A DNA stretch of 26,497 nt, from positions 1-26,497 of the IMG/VR virus record IMGVR_UViG_3300031463_000028; one strand, 5' to 3'. Origin of the DNA: a virus. This document shows positions 3,293 through 25,189 of this stretch, in pieces. The translations under genes and the position numbers were made by a program. The notes under the pieces are model-generated. The model had not been told where the DNA came from. It searched no databases and saw only the letters and a list, made by a program, of their open reading frames with translations. The stretch's first letter is position 1, and each line of letters starts with the position of its first letter.

Positions 3293-6200
3293 ATGGCCAT
3301 CAAAGAGACGATTAAAAACTTTATCCGTGAAGTCTTCGGTCGGGAAAAGGGACGGCAGGAAAGTTCTAAAATTGACGACATGATGGATAAACTGCCGAGT
3401 CATCTTTCGTTCTTGGTGGGCGGTGGCATTAGTGACATTGCCAGATATCTCCAGATGGAAGATGATATTAAGTGCTTGACAGGGGATACAAGAATTGCTG
3501 TGTTGAATGATGGCCTACAGTGGGTGCCCATCAAGCAGTTGGCGGAGGTTTATGGGGCAGACGACTCACTATTTGTTCTTAGTTACGACCGAGAACATAA
3601 AAAAGTGGTTTGTGCTAAGGCATATCATCCTAGAAAGACCAAGGAAAATGCCAAAGTTTTTTATGTAGTGATGGCTGGTTCACTCAAGAATGCAAACCAG
3701 TCGTATGTGATTCGGGCAACGGCCAATCATCCATTCTTGATGCAGGATGGTAAAACATATAAGCGGGTGGATGAGTTGAAGCCTGGTGATTTAGTAATGC
3801 CTGTTAGTTCATCGTCAAATGGCTGTATGGACGCTCAGCACTGGATAAAGAGTATATGCGTCGTTGCTGTTCTCCCGGCAGGGGAGGCTGATGTATACGA
3901 CTTGACTGTTCCAGGCTACGAGAACTTTGCAGCCGAGGGTGTGTTTGTCCATAATTCCCGTTATATGGATTACGAGGATATGGATGACCTCCCAGAACTT
4001 TCGGCAGCCCTTGATATATATTCTGACGATTCGACCCAACCGCATGTTGTGTCCGGCGAATCATTGTGGGTTGAGGGACAAAATCAGGAGCTGGTGGACG
4101 ACCTGAACGAGATGTTGCAAAAAAGAATTGGTATCGAGGACGAACTTTGGGGCATTGCGAGAAATCTAAACAAATATGGTAATGATTTTGAAGAATTGTT
4201 GGTTAAGGATAAGGAGGGTGTTGTCGGATTAAATTTCATGGCTACTCCGTTGGTGCGCTGCATTGTGGATAAGACATGGACAGTGCTCGGCTATAAGTAT
4301 CATCCAGAAGGGAGGTTTTCAAAAACCAGCGAGGAAGATTTCAGGGCATATTTGGAAAAGAGAAAAGTTCCCCCTTTGGGTGAGGTCATCTTTGAAGATT
4401 GGGAGGTGGCGCATTTCAAACTCGGTTCTCGTCGTCGGTGGGACATATATGGCACCTGCTTGGATGGCGATAGCTTGGTATGGGGCCAGGAACAGGTCAG
4501 TCCCATCAAGAATATGGGCGCCGGATATCGTGCCGTTTCTTATGATGGCGGTCGGCTGATTGATGGCGATGTTGTGGCTCAGAAGAGCAATGGCATCAAG
4601 AAGGTGTATCGGATGACGCTGTGCCATCGGGAAATCGTGGCGACTTCAAACCATCCATTCTTGGTATATGCGAGAATCGGAGCAAGCAAGCGGCACACGG
4701 GCAAGGAAATCCGCCACTATATATATGCCGACAAGCCGGAGTGGAAGGAGTTGAAGGATATCAAGGTCGGCGACAGGGTGGTTATTTCCACCGAGATGGA
4801 GCACGGGATTGCTGATGTTGCCTTTGGATGCGACAGTAAGAAGTATCGGAAGACCATTAAGATTCCGACACATTCGTCGGTGGCGTTCTGCCGCTGGTTC
4901 GGGTTCATGTTGGGTGGCGGGTGGGTGCATGGCAACCAGGTCGTGTTCGCCGAGGGCACCAGCCGTGCGAACAATAAGCAATATAAGCAGCTCTTCAAAT
5001 CACTCTTCGGCCTGGGCTGCACTTATCGCAAGAATGTGAATGGTGATTACGGGCAGTTCGTTGTGTCGTCAAAGGAGCTGGCTGAGTTCATGGAGGGCAT
5101 TGGCTGGAAGAACGGGGCGCATAACAAGCGGCTGCCGGATTGGGTGTGGCGGCTTCCCCGTAGCCAGAAGGAAGCTCTGTTGTGGGGGTTCATGGACGCT
5201 GACGGGTGGGATGCCATGACCAATGGGCATAAGGTGTATGGCATTGAGCTGTGCAATGAGAGCCTTCTGCGGGACATCAAGGCCCTGATTGACGGCCTAG
5301 GGTATGCGTGCGGCAATGTCAAGTCCAGACAGCGAAGGGGACACCGGATGAAGGATGGCCGCATCATTCAGGGCGGGACTTCCTACTATCTGTTCTTCTA
5401 TGACAACAAGCTCAAAACGCCGTTTGATGTGTCGCTGGTGCAGAGCATCGAGTATGTCGGCGAGCGTGAGGTGTTTGATATCCAGATTGACAACGATGCC
5501 CATAACTTCGTGGCCAATGGAATCGTTGTGCACAATAGCGTCCTCGAGGCGGCCCGATGGATATGGCGTCGCTTAGTTTTGCTTGAAGACTCTATGTTGA
5601 TTTATCGTTTAACCAGAAGTCCTTCGAGGTTTGTATTTTTCGTTGATATAGGTGATAAAAGTGGGCCAGAGGCATGGAAACATTTGAATAATGTAAGGAA
5701 TGAGTTTAAGAAAAAGAAATTTGTGAATGCCAGTGGCCACCTCGATATGCGCTATAACCCGTTGGCCAATGATGAGGATTTGTTTATCCCGGTGCGGGGC
5801 GGCAAGCGTGGCATTGAGGTGGAGACTCTACAAGGCCCTATTTATGGGGCTATTGACGATGTGGAGTATTTTAAGGATAAGCTCTATGCCGCCATTAAGA
5901 TTCCGAAGTGTCTGAGTGGGGAGACCGAGATACCGCTGACGAACGGCCAGGTGGTTAAGATGGTAGAACTGCATCAGCGTATCGAAGCCGGAGAGAAGCT
6001 GTGGGTGTATTCGATTTCGCCGGAGGGCCATGTGGTGCCAGGTGAGATTTTGAAGACCGAGCTGACCGACCCGGATGCCAAGGTAGTTGAGGTCGAACTG
6101 GACAATGGCGAAAAGGTAGTCTGCACGGACAACCATCCGTTTATGCTTAAGGATGGGAAATACCGTGAGGCCAAAGACCTGGTAGCGGGCGACAGCCTGA

Positions 6201-7048
6201 TGTCTTGGGTGGTTAGGAGTCCCCGTTGTGGGGTTGTGGCGGTTAGGGCACTGAGCGACAGGATTCCTGTATATGATTTGCATGTGAAGGACTATCATAA
6301 CTTTGCTATTGCCCAGGGTGTCTATGTGCATAATTCATATCTCGGATTTGAGGAGGATGTGTCGGCTAAAGCCTTGTTGAGTCAGGAGGACATCCGTTTT
6401 AGTCGCACCATTTTGAGGATTCAGCGGGAAATTCGCAATGGATTTAGGCGAGTCTGTAATGTGCATTTGGCAGCCAAGGGTATTGACCCGGCTGAAGTTG
6501 ATTTTGATGTAATGATGACGATTCCGTCAGCTATTTTCGAGCAAGCATATCTCCAGGTGCTACAAACTCGTGCAGAAGTCGCTGACAAAATGCAGGATTT
6601 TGTGTCCATGGACTGGTTGTTGAGGGAAATCTTTCATTTTTCTGACGCTGAAATTGCCGAGATGGAACGGCAACGGGCTAATGTGGATGCTGAGGGCAGG
6701 CCGACACTTGACCTGAGTGATGTGCCATCCGATGCTGAAATTCCTGTTGAGGTGCCGGAGGGAAGCGATGTGGTGCAACAGGTAGTGAAGGCTCTGAAAC
6801 GGCAAGGTGTTTCTGCGAAGAAGGTGCTGAACGACCGCATTACTCTCGGCTTGGCCAAGGACAAGATCGACAAAGCTCTGAGCAGTGTCTATAAGCGGAG
6901 TGATGGCAGACGGATGGAGGGGAAGCTGGATGTTCTTTTGCGGAGCGATAAACGGCTTGAAGAGCGGCTGAAGAATCTTTCCAGTCTCTTGACCGAACTT
7001 AAACATGGTATGGCCATTCGGCAACATCGGACGACTAATGAGGAATAA
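3293..7048 (+). CDS. Portal protein precursor (T4 gp20-like) with three inteins
   Basis: A 1251-residue open frame encoding a portal protein split into four exteins: residues 1-60, 222-388, 749-872 and 1015-1251. Removing the three inteins leaves 588 residues, close to T4 gp20 (524). The joined protein recreates gp20-family motifs: SRYMDYEDMDDLPELSAALD after junction 1, GT-SVLEAARWIWRRLVLLED across junction 2, and AIKIPK-SYLGF across junction 3, with FFVDIGD and DDVEYFKDKLYAAI between. The portal is the dodecameric ring at the capsid vertex through which DNA enters and the tail attaches. The C-terminus (about residues 1120-1251) is charged and helical. The start follows AGGTGGTG. All three inteins must splice for the conserved core to be continuous, so portal maturation depends on protein splicing. 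The family call is firm from these motifs; splicing itself is inferred. Confidence 0.93.
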   Translation: MAIKETIKNFIREVFGREKGRQESSKIDDMMDKLPSHLSFLVGGGISDIARYLQMEDDIKCLTGDTRIAVLNDGLQWVPIKQLAEVYGADDSLFVLSYDREHKKVVCAKAYHPRKTKENAKVFYVVMAGSLKNANQSYVIRATANHPFLMQDGKTYKRVDELKPGDLVMPVSSSSNGCMDAQHWIKSICVVAVLPAGEADVYDLTVPGYENFAAEGVFVHNSRYMDYEDMDDLPELSAALDIYSDDSTQPHVVSGESLWVEGQNQELVDDLNEMLQKRIGIEDELWGIARNLNKYGNDFEELLVKDKEGVVGLNFMATPLVRCIVDKTWTVLGYKYHPEGRFSKTSEEDFRAYLEKRKVPPLGEVIFEDWEVAHFKLGSRRRWDIYGTCLDGDSLVWGQEQVSPIKNMGAGYRAVSYDGGRLIDGDVVAQKSNGIKKVYRMTLCHREIVATSNHPFLVYARIGASKRHTGKEIRHYIYADKPEWKELKDIKVGDRVVISTEMEHGIADVAFGCDSKKYRKTIKIPTHSSVAFCRWFGFMLGGGWVHGNQVVFAEGTSRANNKQYKQLFKSLFGLGCTYRKNVNGDYGQFVVSSKELAEFMEGIGWKNGAHNKRLPDWVWRLPRSQKEALLWGFMDADGWDAMTNGHKVYGIELCNESLLRDIKALIDGLGYACGNVKSRQRRGHRMKDGRIIQGGTSYYLFFYDNKLKTPFDVSLVQSIEYVGEREVFDIQIDNDAHNFVANGIVVHNSVLEAARWIWRRLVLLEDSMLIYRLTRSPSRFVFFVDIGDKSGPEAWKHLNNVRNEFKKKKFVNASGHLDMRYNPLANDEDLFIPVRGGKRGIEVETLQGPIYGAIDDVEYFKDKLYAAIKIPKCLSGETEIPLTNGQVVKMVELHQRIEAGEKLWVYSISPEGHVVPGEILKTELTDPDAKVVEVELDNGEKVVCTDNHPFMLKDGKYREAKDLVAGDSLMSWVVRSPRCGVVAVRALSDRIPVYDLHVKDYHNFAIAQGVYVHNSYLGFEEDVSAKALLSQEDIRFSRTILRIQREIRNGFRRVCNVHLAAKGIDPAEVDFDVMMTIPSAIFEQAYLQVLQTRAEVADKMQDFVSMDWLLREIFHFSDAEIAEMERQRANVDAEGRPTLDLSDVPSDAEIPVEVPEGSDVVQQVVKALKRQGVSAKKVLNDRITLGLAKDKIDKALSSVYKRSDGRRMEGKLDVLLRSDKRLEERLKNLSSLLTELKHGMAIRQHRTTNEE
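3473..3955 (+). mobile_element. Portal intein 1 (161-residue mini-intein)
   Basis: Residues 61-221 of the portal frame. It starts with Cys (CLTGDTRI, block A), has a block B T-x-N-H motif (ATANHPFL), and ends GVFVHN followed by Ser as the +1 extein nucleophile. There is no endonuclease domain, so it is a mini-intein. Block F reads VPGYENFAAEG, with Glu where the other two inteins here have His; some active inteins lack that His, so splicing is still expected. Base composition looks like the surrounding portal. The insertion site lies just before the conserved RYMDYEDMD portal segment. Confidence 0.9.
4457..5536 (+). mobile_element. Portal intein 2 (360 residues, LAGLIDADG endonuclease domain)
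   Basis: Residues 389-748 of the portal frame. The splicing domain has Cys1 (CLDGDSLVWG), block B VATSNHPFLV, and a C-terminal DNDAHNFVANGIVVHN followed by Ser. Between them lies a DOD-type homing endonuclease with two LAGLIDADG helices: block C FGFMLGGGW (residues 536-544) and block E LWGFMDADG (630-638). Block E keeps its acidic D637, but block C has Gly542 (GGC) at the matching catalytic position, one transition away from Asp (GAC). The DNA is clearly richer in G+C than the flanking portal: 40 of 60 bases at 5101-5160 against 21 of 60 at 5581-5640, which suggests separate ancestry. It sits inside the very conserved GT-SVLEAAR motif. Confidence 0.93.
5909..6334 (+). mobile_element. Portal intein 3 (142-residue mini-intein)
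   Basis: Residues 873-1014 of the portal frame. It begins CLSGETEI, has block B VVCTDNHPFML, block F PVYDLHVKDYHNFAIAQ with its His present, and ends GVYVHN followed by Ser. At 142 residues it is close to the minimum for a splicing domain and has no endonuclease. G+C is raised compared with the extein on its left (32 of 60 at 5941-6000). It interrupts the portal motif IPK-SYLGF, one of the best conserved stretches of the gp20 family. Confidence 0.92.
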
Positions 7049-12121: not shown

Positions 12122-13588
12122 ATGGCAGAACAACGCAAACTCAATCCATTCGTCAATCCGTTGACGGACGAGGGTTATGTCGGCTACTGTCGGAAGAAGT
12201 GGCAGCCTCTTATGGAGTCTACTTGGAGTGATTCGCTTCAGCGGACAATGGCCATTCTTTTTGAGAACCAGGCTCGTTCATCTGAAGCACAACTCAAGAA
12301 GTTACATGAGGACAGCACCACAACTGGAGATTTGGCATCCTATGTCAAGTATCTGTTCCCGACTGTCCGTAGGGTGTGGCCCACACTCATAGCCAATGAT
12401 ATTGTTAGTGTCCAACCCATGAGTGCCCCGATTGGTGGTGTGTCGTATTTCAAAGCGATGTTTAACACCAACAAGGGGAGCATCTCGGCTGGGCAGGAGA
12501 TGATTACTAATGATGTGTTTTCTCGTTGGTATTCGTCTGACTATGTCGACGGTGAGTTGGTAGGATTGGGGGCGGGCGCACCTTTTACGGGCACTATTGA
12601 CTTCTATCCTATTATCAAGCACGGGACGACTGGCTATGCCTCGTCTTACTATTTCACTGTGACCTATACCGTCGGCGGAGTCCTTAAGACTGCTATTGAC
12701 CGAGATGGCGATGGTAAACTGTATGACGGAGCTACTGAAGTTGGCACTATCGATTATACTGGCACTAGCGACCAGCTCGTTTTGACCGTCAGCCCTGACA
12801 GCGGGACTGCTGTAACGGCTTACTACCGTTACAATATGGAAATGAATACTAAAATTCCGGAAGTCAGTTTGCAAATTCAGCTTGACGAGATTCGGGCTGG
12901 GAGCCGGAAGTTGAAGACTATGTGGTCGAGCGAAGCCGCCGAGGATGTCAAGGCCCTCTATGGGTTGGATGCCGAGGGTGAACTGGTATCAATGGTGGCA
13001 TCGGAAATCGCTCTGGAAATCGACCGGGAAATTATTATGGATATTGCCAGTGTTGTAGATGATGTGGCCAAACTTGAGTGGGATATGGATGTGCCTGACG
13101 GCATCTCCGAGGTTGCTCATTTCCGCTCTATACTGACCAAGCTCAGCAACATGAGCAATATTATCCATAAGCGGTCATTCCGACAGCCGGGCAACTGGAT
13201 TGTTTGCTCACCGGAAATCTCCAGTATTTTCGACCAGTTTGCTACTCATGGCGATTATCGTCCTATTCTGGCCGGGGCTGACAAGGACGCCCGTGCCCCC
13301 GTGCAGCCCCCGCAGAATGCTGGCGTTTATTTTGCTGGAACACTCCAGTCTCGGTGGGCAGTTTATGTTGACCCGTTCTTCCCCAAGAACGAACTTATTA
13401 TGGGTCTGAAAGGGGCTACTTTTATGGATGCCGGCTATGTGTATGCTCCGTATATTCCGCTCCAGCTCACCCCGACATTCCTTGACCCCGCTGATTTCTC
13501 TATGCGTAAGGGTTTGCGGACTCGTTACGCCAAGAAGCTTGTGCGGTCGGAGTTCTATGCCAAGTTGACGGTCAATCACATGCCGTAA
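12122..13588 (+). CDS. Major capsid protein (T4 gp23-like)
   Basis: A 488-residue capsid shell protein. The N-terminus (AILFENQARS, LFPTVRRVWP, IANDIVSVQPM) and C-terminus (GNWIVCSPEISSIF, YVDPFFPKNELIMGLKG, YAPYIPLQLTPTF, RTRYAKKLV) carry the motifs of the gp23 family, which has an HK97-like fold and forms the hexamers of the head. Residues about 150-240 are an inserted beta-rich domain that resembles one in the tail sheath protein of this phage (DGDGKLYDGATEVGTIDY). Unlike T4 gp23, no obvious long N-terminal propeptide is seen before FENQ, which lies near residue 47. AGAAGGA stands upstream of ATG 12122. It follows the protease/scaffold gene after 61 bases and is followed by a stable hairpin. 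Confidence 0.93.
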   Translation: MAEQRKLNPFVNPLTDEGYVGYCRKKWQPLMESTWSDSLQRTMAILFENQARSSEAQLKKLHEDSTTTGDLASYVKYLFPTVRRVWPTLIANDIVSVQPMSAPIGGVSYFKAMFNTNKGSISAGQEMITNDVFSRWYSSDYVDGELVGLGAGAPFTGTIDFYPIIKHGTTGYASSYYFTVTYTVGGVLKTAIDRDGDGKLYDGATEVGTIDYTGTSDQLVLTVSPDSGTAVTAYYRYNMEMNTKIPEVSLQIQLDEIRAGSRKLKTMWSSEAAEDVKALYGLDAEGELVSMVASEIALEIDREIIMDIASVVDDVAKLEWDMDVPDGISEVAHFRSILTKLSNMSNIIHKRSFRQPGNWIVCSPEISSIFDQFATHGDYRPILAGADKDARAPVQPPQNAGVYFAGTLQSRWAVYVDPFFPKNELIMGLKGATFMDAGYVYAPYIPLQLTPTFLDPADFSMRKGLRTRYAKKLVRSEFYAKLTVNHMP

Positions 13589-17450: not shown

Positions 17451-17762
17451 GGGCGCCCCGCCCCGACCGACCCGGCGGATACCGGGGTTGCATATCTGTT
17501 ATATGATTGCAGTTATGGTAATCGGGGCGATATTGTAGCTCGGACACAAATGACGGATGCAAAAAGCTTGCAGGCTTGGCAAAAGAAAATAGAGAGAAAG
17601 TATCCTGGCGGATTCGTTGGTTTTCGGTGGACATGAGGATGCTAAACCCTTGTGGTTGCAACCTCCGATGAGGAGAAAGCAAGGGTTATCCAGAACAAAA
17701 CGAAAGAGCTCTATTCCAGGGGCGTCATTGTTCAGTTCGGGGACACTGGTATAGTCAGTTAA
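17451..17762 (+). pseudogene. Probable decayed small gene (two in-frame stops, no start)
   Basis: In one frame, codons from 17451 to 17633 read like a real protein, ending with TDAKSLQAWQKKIERKYPGG and then FVGFRWT before TGA at 17634. Nine bases on is a TAA (17643), after which the same frame stays open from 17646 to TAA 17760 and again looks protein-like (SDEEKARVIQNKTKELYSRG, then VIVQFGDTGIVS). There is no ATG, GTG or TTG before the first half. The second half could start at GTG 17652 (36 residues) but has a poor binding site. The simplest reading is a relic of a small gene, or of two fused fragments; two tiny live genes are the alternative. Confidence 0.4.
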
Positions 17763-17790
17763 TCGAAAGGTGCAATCAATTGCATGTCTC
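17760..17790. repeat. Palindromic element, copy 2
   Basis: Matches bases 1-31 at 26 of 31 positions. The dyad TGCAAT-CA-ATTGCA spans 17771-17784, with centre CA where copy 1 has TG, so the core stays symmetric. It lies 8 bases before ATG 17799 and overlaps the final TAA of the coding relic. The shared tail GCATGTCTC follows in both copies. Confidence 0.6.
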
Positions 17791-21900: not shown

Positions 21901-23697
21901 ATGGAATATCTTAGCGCAGGAGTCTTCGTCCAGGAGCTCAATAGTGGTGCTCGGCCTATCGCAGGTGTCGGGACTACTACATTGGCTCTTTTGGGCAAGG
22001 CCGAAAGAGGCCCTATTAACACTCCAGTATTGGTTACGAGTATGGGCGATTTCTATCGCACATTTGGTAATATTGCTCGTTACCGAGTTGGGGCAACCGA
22101 TTACGAGTTTTTCTATCTGGGTATGGCTTTAAGCCTGTTCTTTGCCAACGGCGGCACCAGAGCCTATATTGTCCGCATTGCCAATACTACCGGCGGGCCT
22201 GGCCATGCTGCGGTAGCGGCAACTGCTGACTGGACTACTCTCTGGACTCGCACGGCGAAGAATGAGGGTATTTGGGGAAATCGTATTTCGGATATTCTGA
22301 CTGAGGACAGCAACAATCAGGGCGTTATTGTTGGTGAAGTGCAAGATATCTCAACTGGCACTTTTACATTGAACTTTCATCCAGTAAAGCCTTATAGTGT
22401 GCAGTTTACCTATAATAGTGGTGCTGGGCCGACCACGATTGTTTGCCATGATGGTGGCGATGGTAAATTGTATGATGCATCGGGAGGGCAAGTCGGCACT
22501 ATTAATTACGATAGTGGTGTTTGCGCCATTACCAGCCCCACTCCCCTGACCCTCATTGGTGGCATTACTTATGGCTACAAGATGTATGTCTACGAGATTT
22601 ACTACCAGGACAACCCGCAGGATAGAGGCACAAAGCGGTTGGTCGAACGGTTTGACAATCTCGACTTGGTGAATGAGGCTGGGCAGCGGTATTTTCCGAA
22701 TGTGGTGAATGACGAAGATACCGGGTCGGAATATGTCAAAATTACCAAGTTATCGGGTGGCGTGCCATCTCCGTTGCCGAGCGAATCTTATTTGGAGAAT
22801 GGTGCTGAGGGCGATACTATTTCGGATACCGAGCTTCAGGCTGGGCTAGATTCGCTTGACCATACCACCGATATGATGATGCTGGTAGCTCCCGATACAC
22901 AGTTTGCTGGAATCGCTTCGTCATCTAAAGTGCTCATTGACTATGCTGATAATCGGGGTGATTGCTTCGCCATTTTAGAAACCCCCGCTTCATTGAAGCA
23001 AGAAAGCGATATGAGTGAAGTGGTAAAGTATGTGCAGGCAACTCTCAACAAGAATACTTCGAGGGCTGCTCTTTATCACCCGTGGGTGCGGATCGCTGAT
23101 CCGTTAGCACAGGCTCGAAAAGTAGATTTTCCGCCTGCTGCTATCATAGCTGGCATTTATGCCCGCACCGATATTACTCGTAATGTTTCCAAGACTCCTG
23201 CTGGGATTACGGATGGGGCATTGCGTGGCGTGTTAGAGTTGACCTATTCGACTAATAAGTCGCAGCGGGATGTTATCTATCCGGCACGGGTGAATCCATT
23301 GGTGGACGAGCCGCAGACTGGCTTGTGTGTCTGGGGCGGACGCACACTGTCGTTGGATTCTTTATGGAAATATATTGGCGTGCGGCGTCTATTCCAGTTT
23401 TTGGAGAAAAGCACTTTTCTGGCTACTCATTGGGTAGTCTTTGAGAACAATGATGCAACAACTCGCACTAGAGTGCGTCTTCAGATGGAGGCATTTTTGC
23501 TTTTCCTGTTCCAGCAGGATTACTTTGCCGGCAAGACTCCATCGGAAGCATTCTATGTTGTGTGTGACGAAAGCAACAATCCGCAGTCGGTGGTAGACCA
23601 GGGTCTTCTTATTTGCGACATAGCTGTTGCTCCGAAGAACCCCGCAGAATATGTAGTTTATAGGTTCCAGCAAAAAACTGCAACCGCAACAGTCTAA
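21901..23697 (+). CDS. Tail sheath protein (T4 gp18-like)
   Basis: A 598-residue contractile tail sheath. The N-terminus (YLSAGVFVQELNSGARPIAG) and the C-terminal domain (RRLFQFLEKSTFLATHWVVF, TRVRLQMEAFLLFLFQQDYF, then AFYVVCDESNNP) carry the hallmarks of the sheath family shared by T4 gp18 and related contractile systems; the FFANGGTRAYIVRIAN segment near residue 80-95 is also typical. Residues about 144-231 hold an extra beta-rich domain (GGDGKLYDASGGQVGTINYD) that closely resembles one in the capsid protein of the same phage. The sheath surrounds the tube and contracts to drive DNA injection. AAGGAG precedes ATG 21901. The tube gene is not adjacent: a methyltransferase and a small gene separate them. 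Confidence 0.95.
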   Translation: MEYLSAGVFVQELNSGARPIAGVGTTTLALLGKAERGPINTPVLVTSMGDFYRTFGNIARYRVGATDYEFFYLGMALSLFFANGGTRAYIVRIANTTGGPGHAAVAATADWTTLWTRTAKNEGIWGNRISDILTEDSNNQGVIVGEVQDISTGTFTLNFHPVKPYSVQFTYNSGAGPTTIVCHDGGDGKLYDASGGQVGTINYDSGVCAITSPTPLTLIGGITYGYKMYVYEIYYQDNPQDRGTKRLVERFDNLDLVNEAGQRYFPNVVNDEDTGSEYVKITKLSGGVPSPLPSESYLENGAEGDTISDTELQAGLDSLDHTTDMMMLVAPDTQFAGIASSSKVLIDYADNRGDCFAILETPASLKQESDMSEVVKYVQATLNKNTSRAALYHPWVRIADPLAQARKVDFPPAAIIAGIYARTDITRNVSKTPAGITDGALRGVLELTYSTNKSQRDVIYPARVNPLVDEPQTGLCVWGGRTLSLDSLWKYIGVRRLFQFLEKSTFLATHWVVFENNDATTRTRVRLQMEAFLLFLFQQDYFAGKTPSEAFYVVCDESNNPQSVVDQGLLICDIAVAPKNPAEYVVYRFQQKTATATV

Positions 23698-23788: not shown

Positions 23789-25189
23789 ATGGGAGGGGGT
23801 AAAACTGAGCATAAAATAATAATAGCCGACTCAAGGTCAATGCAAGAAGTTAGCAATGGGTCTGTTCATCTTGTTGTTACCTCCCCACCTTATTGGCAAC
23901 TCAAGGATTACAACAATAGTCGGCAGATTGGGTTTAACGATACCTACGAAGAATACATAAACAACCTCAATTTGGTCTGGAAGGAATGCTATCGGGCATT
24001 ACACACTGGGTGCCGACTGTGTATTAATATCGGAGACCAATTTGCGAGGTCGGTTTATTATGGTCGCTATAAGGTTATTCCTATAAGAACAGAAATCATC
24101 AAATTTTGTGAAACCATCGGTTTTGATTACATGGGTGCAATTATCTGGCAGAAGGTAACTACTTGTAATACTACTGGTGGTGCATCCATTATGGGGTCGT
24201 ATCCATATCCAAGGAATGGCATTGTGAAGATAGACTATGAGTTTATTTTGTTGTTTAAGAAACCAGGTCTTCCTCCGAAAGTCAATAAAATGATAAAGGA
24301 GAAATCCAAACTATCCATAGAGGAATGGAACAAATATTTTTCGGGACACTGGAATTTTCCTGGAGAAAAGCAGGATAATCATTTAGCCATGTTTCCTGAA
24401 GAATTGCCAAGGCGTTTGATAAAAATGTTTAGTTTTGTTGGGGAGACCGTGCTTGACCCATTCCTTGGTTCCGGCACAACGACCCTTGCTGCCCAGAACC
24501 TGAACAGAAACTCCATCGGTTATGAAATAAACGAATCGTTTTTACCCGTCATAAAAGAAAAACTCCGTATCGAAGAACCAGACATGTTTAATAAAACCAA
24601 TGTGGAGTTTCTTAAACCAAAACGGCAAGAGATAGACTATTGCCAGCAACTCCAGGTTTTGCCTTATATTTTTCATGATTCGGTTCAATTTGACAGGAAG
24701 GTTGACCCAAGAAAAATGTCTTTTGGTTCGAAAATTGATTTGAGCGGCAATGGGAGTGAAACAGAAGAATATCTACGGGTGAGACAAGTCATCTCTCCAA
24801 AAGAGATAGAGGTTTCGAATGGTCTTATAGTGAGATTAATAGGAATCAAGGAGATAGCTGAAAAGGAGGGAGAAGCAACTAAATGGCTATGGGATAAATT
24901 GAAAGGGGAAAGTATTTGTTTGAAATTTGACCAAATCAAATACGATGAAAATAATCGGTTACTAGCCTATCTCTATCTCAAGAATAAGACATTCATTAAC
25001 CTCCATTTTTTAAGAACAAATTTGGTGCAACTAGACAAAACCTTTCCATTTCGATACTTAGAAAAATTCAAAGCTATAATTCAGGGCAATTCAAGTGATG
25101 AAAAAGTTAAAGATAAAAACGAGGAAGTTTCTCGGTTGCTTGATGCTGAGGTTGTATCGTTTTCAAAATACACAACGCAACTCATTTAA
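23789..25189 (+). CDS. DNA methyltransferase (beta class) with C-terminal SNase-like domain
   Basis: A 466-residue protein. Residues 1 to about 265 are an amino-methyltransferase: catalytic motif IV TSPPYW (31-36) precedes the AdoMet-binding motif I DPFLGSGT (223-230), the beta-class order. TSPPYW is typical of N4-cytosine enzymes but also occurs in N6-adenine ones, so the modified base is not settled. Residues about 330-432 resemble a staphylococcal-nuclease (thermonuclease) domain: VRLIGI (R349 in the place of SNase Arg35), then a helix, a CLKFD strand, DENNRLLAYLYLKN (R390 in the place of Arg87) and INLHFLRTNLVQ. The D-T-P-x-E calcium/catalytic segment after the first Arg reads KEIAE instead, so cleavage may be lost. 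It sits between sheath and tube, without a partner restriction gene in view, so it is probably a solitary modification enzyme. Confidence 0.85.
   Translation: MGGGKTEHKIIIADSRSMQEVSNGSVHLVVTSPPYWQLKDYNNSRQIGFNDTYEEYINNLNLVWKECYRALHTGCRLCINIGDQFARSVYYGRYKVIPIRTEIIKFCETIGFDYMGAIIWQKVTTCNTTGGASIMGSYPYPRNGIVKIDYEFILLFKKPGLPPKVNKMIKEKSKLSIEEWNKYFSGHWNFPGEKQDNHLAMFPEELPRRLIKMFSFVGETVLDPFLGSGTTTLAAQNLNRNSIGYEINESFLPVIKEKLRIEEPDMFNKTNVEFLKPKRQEIDYCQQLQVLPYIFHDSVQFDRKVDPRKMSFGSKIDLSGNGSETEEYLRVRQVISPKEIEVSNGLIVRLIGIKEIAEKEGEATKWLWDKLKGESICLKFDQIKYDENNRLLAYLYLKNKTFINLHFLRTNLVQLDKTFPFRYLEKFKAIIQGNSSDEKVKDKNEEVSRLLDAEVVSFSKYTTQLI

Follow-up and report, generated by a model that had tools for sequence, protein, structure and literature searches.

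The major capsid protein and the tail sheath protein of the virus studied here appear to carry homologous copies of one promiscuous structural module which, with a probability that we would place at roughly 0.6, braces the repeating shells of the head and of the sheath. The window, by which we mean the whole 26,497-base virus record analyzed, contains a T4-like myovirus structural cassette (portal, head protease, gp23-like capsid protein, gp18-like sheath and tube), and its source is an uncultured T4-like virus of bacteria. The T4 gp23-like major capsid protein, of HK97 fold and 488 aa in length, is encoded on the forward strand at positions 12122-13588 (PHROG major head protein, E 4e-72), and its match to Pfam Gp23 (E 1e-68) extends over residues 73-481 and hence covers the HK97-fold core. 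The gp18-like tail sheath protein (598 aa) is encoded on the same strand at positions 21901-23697 (Pfam Phage_sheath_1, E 1.2e-11, and Phage_sheath_1C; PHROG tail sheath, E 5.8e-71). The capsid module occupies residues 153-238 (12578-12835, forward strand; profile E 7.6e-14), at the E-loop/I-domain position immediately before the spine-helix segment, and the sheath module residues 151-229 (22351-22587, forward strand; profile E 4.1e-10), flanked by the GIWGN strand and the VERF segment in the variable region that separates the N-terminal from the C-terminal core. A first-pass annotation of this DNA had located a common inserted domain in these same regions, and its bounds are here corrected to the coordinates given above.

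Elsewhere in the window, the portal gene (3293-7048) is interrupted by several inteins, as Pfam Intein_splicing matches in four stretches, the Portal_T4 match is broken into three parts, and a weak LAGLIDADG match is also present. A 31-nt sequence occurs in two copies, at positions 1-31 and 17760-17790, with 84% direct identity; the second copy is intergenic, and the core of the repeat, TGCAATYRATTGCA, is near-palindromic. An N6/N4 DNA methylase gene (23789-25189) lies between the sheath gene and the tube gene.

At the amino acid level, the match between capsid and sheath in the window is well beyond chance. The two segments align by blastp at E 1e-5, with 35% identity over 71 columns, and the module pair has a BLOSUM62 score of 79, which was reached by none of 20,000 shuffles (mean 33, maximum 78); this pair of proteins is in fact the top-scoring one among the 231 protein pairs of the window, the runner-up having a score of 61. 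The motif GDGKLYD is exact in both modules, at capsid residue 196 (12707) and sheath residue 186 (22456), and is followed by VGTI(D/N)Y, both motifs being already recorded in the first-pass annotation. The GT-x-x-x-F-x-P spacing proposed there was mistaken, however, as GT and F are separated by two residues in the capsid (GTIDFYP) and by four in the sheath (GTFTLNFHP), which leaves only F-x-P in common. Similarity between the two genes at the DNA level, also proposed, does exist, but it is confined to a single stretch of 21 nt coding for GDGKLYD (12706-12726 in the capsid gene and 22455-22475 in the sheath gene, both on the forward strand), identical at 20/21 positions by blastn and repeat search and with an E value, taken alone, of 0.049 (blastn).

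Searches of IMG/VR provided about 150 loci that encode a related capsid or sheath; because these loci come from related phages, the counts that follow should not be read as independent events. All 74 long capsid proteins that were aligned carry an insert of like kind at the identical place. When a capsid-only profile, made from 73 capsid inserts of other phages with the window left out, was searched against 14,456 ORFs, every one of the 57 non-capsid matches at E<1 was a sheath, with E 4.6 for the best other ORF and E 1.3 for the best reversed-sequence one. An iterated profile, which is not independent evidence because it was seeded with both capsid and sheath modules, recovered 81 capsids with a single module each, 74 sheaths with 164 modules between them, and one other ORF. 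Comparison of the capsid-only and sheath-only alignments with hhalign gave a probability of 97.8 (E 1.1e-12), and this result and the capsid-only search can be considered largely, although not wholly, independent, because the sheath rows were chosen via the iterated profile. At the sequence level, these comparisons demonstrate the homology of the two inserts and their positions of insertion, and they uphold the original claim that two unrelated folds bear a homologous inserted domain. One could still argue that unrelated beta-rich inserts came by convergence or composition to have a turn motif in common, as the modules are short, rich in G, T, D and Y and, in the window, only 35% identical; in light of the shuffle test, the hhalign result, the reversed-sequence control and the restriction of non-capsid matches to sheaths, on which chance or composition was rejected as the source of the likeness, we regard such an explanation as extremely improbable.

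Further copies were found in relatives, with up to four in a single sheath, and across the records that were searched the module is nearly restricted to these two shell proteins. A sheath-only profile, run over the whole records of 13 related contigs (98-200 kb), matched no open frames other than those as long as a sheath (838-1022 aa) or a capsid (about 500 aa), with the capsid as the only match in one of the 13; in four isolate genomes the capsid protein was the sole match, and in two further whole records no match was found. The sole carrier in the ORF set that is neither capsid nor sheath lies upstream of the capsid in locus L047 (2584-3294); this ORF is 237 aa long and bears one module at its C-terminal end, preceded by a domain like a small neighbouring ORF (about 110 aa) of several relatives. 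When the two window modules were themselves used as tblastn queries against named phages, no match was obtained, and therefore cleaner modules from relatives were taken instead; many named phages also have the module in their capsids, and it occurs in a small number of tail proteins from other phages. PHROG 6128, a family with no described function, was matched by 40 of 46 capsid modules and by 39 of 56 sheath modules, but differs in being a whole-protein family of 1200 positions, compared to the approximately 80 residues of the module. A phrog_6128 tail protein was evaluated as a possible third carrier and rejected, as the candidate tail proteins of isolates were without a match and whole-record matches were limited to capsid- or sheath-length frames.

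In the capsid protein, the module has the VQPM strand on one side and, on the other, the segment preceding the long spine helix. Solved T4 gp23 aligns well on both flanks of it, the alignment across the insert itself being of low confidence, and on this alignment the module is at the E-loop position where T4-like capsid proteins bear their surface I-domain. The sheath-only profile, when searched against the PDB, found the capsid protein gp23 of phage P1 (9ukm, E 0.009), and both capsid- and sheath-derived profiles place the module signature at P1 gp23 residues 228-299, ending shortly before the E-loop portion, which is reported to start at residue 307 (PMC9024508). The I-domain of P1 gp23 is described (PMC12810830) as beta-rich, protruding outward and touching adjacent capsomers, with a bracing role, and we infer that residues 228-299 fall within it. 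P1 gp23 and the T4-like I-domains resemble the window capsid in having a beta-rich insert that adjoins the E-loop of an HK97-fold capsid protein. No match to the module was seen in the first 210 residues of P1's own sheath, and no relation of T4 gp23, gp24 or gp18 to the module could be detected by sequence. The capsid proteins of Bacillus phage SP-15, Rhizobium phage RHph_TM30, Pseudomonas phage QdP_Psa3 and Escherichia phage IME392 carry the module at the same position as the window capsid; unlike the window, these phages showed no module in their sheaths or elsewhere when whole records were searched. The module-bearing capsid gene of SP-15 (L165, 19563-22080) is annotated as two joined pieces that flank an endonuclease gene. 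The capsid copy of the window also includes the sequence DRDGDGKLYD (12698-12727), which resembles a DxDxDG calcium-binding loop; this pattern occurs in 4 of 223 modules, compared to 5 matches in 1.95 million residues of other ORFs, and a calcium-binding loop as a common feature was discarded because only those four modules fit the pattern.

In the sheath, solved sheath structures align to residues 2-97 and 312-592 of the window protein, and the module (151-229) is located between these core parts. Among sheaths of at least 560 residues, 72 of 84 bear one to four modules, which in relatives are found at two sites: one precedes the G-x-W-G-N motif, and the other follows it and lies downstream of the YFP motif in those sheaths that have one. 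Only in the window sheath is the module found between the G-x-W-G-N and YFP motifs, a third site, at which two distant sheaths (L010 and L011) have differing sequence. These features are reminiscent of the type 2 and type 3 tail sheath proteins of Evseev et al. 2022 (PMC9230969), whose added domains are, as here, beta-rich and variable in number; according to that survey, such domains are located at a distance from the tube and in many cases resemble Ig domains. The sections of it that were consulted make no mention of homology to capsid I-domains, and the window modules are at most candidates for an Ig fold.

A common fold of the capsid and sheath modules is likely based on structural models. 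The capsid model, generated from capsid sequences only, has seven strands (pLDDT 74, pTM 0.65), and the sheath model, generated from sheath sequences only, has six in the same order, with low confidence (pLDDT 69, pTM 0.50). The two independently made models therefore agree in strand order, even though that of the sheath is of low confidence. Against viral models, the best match to the capsid model was a tail sheath protein (E 2.9e-3, prob 1.00), and major capsid proteins ranked third and sixth. Against the PDB, Foldseek returned weak Ig-like matches for the capsid model (TM about 0.5, no E below 0.001), with no I-domain among the 50 matches listed, and no match for the sheath model. Among the modules scanned, none matched the curated Ig-like Pfam families beyond scattered weak hits, so nothing spoke for placing the module in a named Pfam Ig family. 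The residues conserved in both capsid and sheath sets are mostly glycines and tyrosines of turns and core, as would be expected from constraint on the fold rather than from a binding site.

With regard to the history of the module, the sequences are better explained by exchange, either ancient or repeated, of a promiscuous phage module than by a recent copy within the genome, and phage proteins are indeed known to exchange Ig-like domains (cited in PMC9230969). The transfer within the genome that had been put forward for this DNA, if taken as recent, and with it recent intragenomic duplication, was rejected: identity is 35%, the DNA likeness is limited to 21 nt, the two window modules are not mutual best matches, each being absent from the other's top 13 in a comparison set of 223 modules, and they are about 2.1 substitutions per site apart, on deep branches, in a tree which is based on 77 columns and has weak support. 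An old transfer from capsid to sheath is possible, because the tree sets both window modules near the capsid modules of isolates, with modest support, and because the site used by the window sheath was unseen in the other sheaths examined. Whether such a copy arose within this lineage, with the sheath module derived from the phage's own capsid gene and later diverged, is more doubtful. The site that no other module-bearing sheath examined uses would agree with it, as would the branching of the window modules near each other (support 0.75), the capsid modules found as nearest tips to the sheath copy by distance, and the 21-nt stretch. Protein identity is nevertheless low, the module is already present in sheaths throughout the clade, and in single-sequence searches the window sheath module matches the modules of other sheaths better than that of its own capsid; given also how few columns support the tree, we consider this scenario unlikely.

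As for function, among the roles put forward in the first-pass annotation (decoration, host surface binding and stabilization), stabilization is the one that we favour as likeliest, by analogy with the I-domains of P1 and T4 (PMC12810830 and PMC3185693). The module would be a beta domain of about 80 residues and six to seven strands, with a conserved core made of a D-G turn and a G-x-I-x-Y-x-x-G hairpin; its capsid copy would be a surface I-domain inserted at the E-loop, and its sheath copy one of the added outer domains, away from the tube. Judging from P1, T4 (PMC3185693) and the sheath survey, both copies may project outward and brace neighbouring subunits, namely capsomers in the head and discs in the sheath, which would result in a larger, stabilized virion exterior. 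The main rival to bracing is that the module binds a ligand, so that both copies would recognize one partner, such as a cell-surface sugar, a fibre or a whisker protein, and head and tail would adhere alike. Added Ig-like sheath domains have in fact been proposed as adhesion aids (PMC9230969), the module is also found in tail proteins of other phages, and its copy number in sheaths varies from one to four. The positions conserved between capsid and sheath resemble structural turns, however, more than a surface patch, and the copy at the capsid I-domain position has a known bracing role in P1 (PMC12810830), all of which makes ligand binding improbable in our opinion. Slightly less doubtful, and still quite tentative, is the broader proposal that the capsid I-domain of large myoviruses and the added sheath domains are one family, gained repeatedly (at three sheath sites, one of them unique to this virus) and retained nearly exclusively by these two proteins, with the result that one surface module would be displayed on both the head and the tail of a virion and would serve a joint function, for example docking of a common partner.

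Capsid I-domains and added sheath domains are each already known and have been described separately. Their common identity was unreported in the literature that we searched, as far as its accessible text goes; few subscription journals were covered, and we make no claim of priority. The sequence link between capsid and sheath across a large uncultured group implies that both outer shells of a myovirus draw on one module, and it offers a testable origin for the added sheath domains, whose purpose, whether stability or adhesion, is debated. Isolates that bear the capsid copy are targets for cryo-EM or deletion tests. More generally, our results suggest that phages re-use one building block on the head shell and on the contractile tail sheath, across a large group of relatives.
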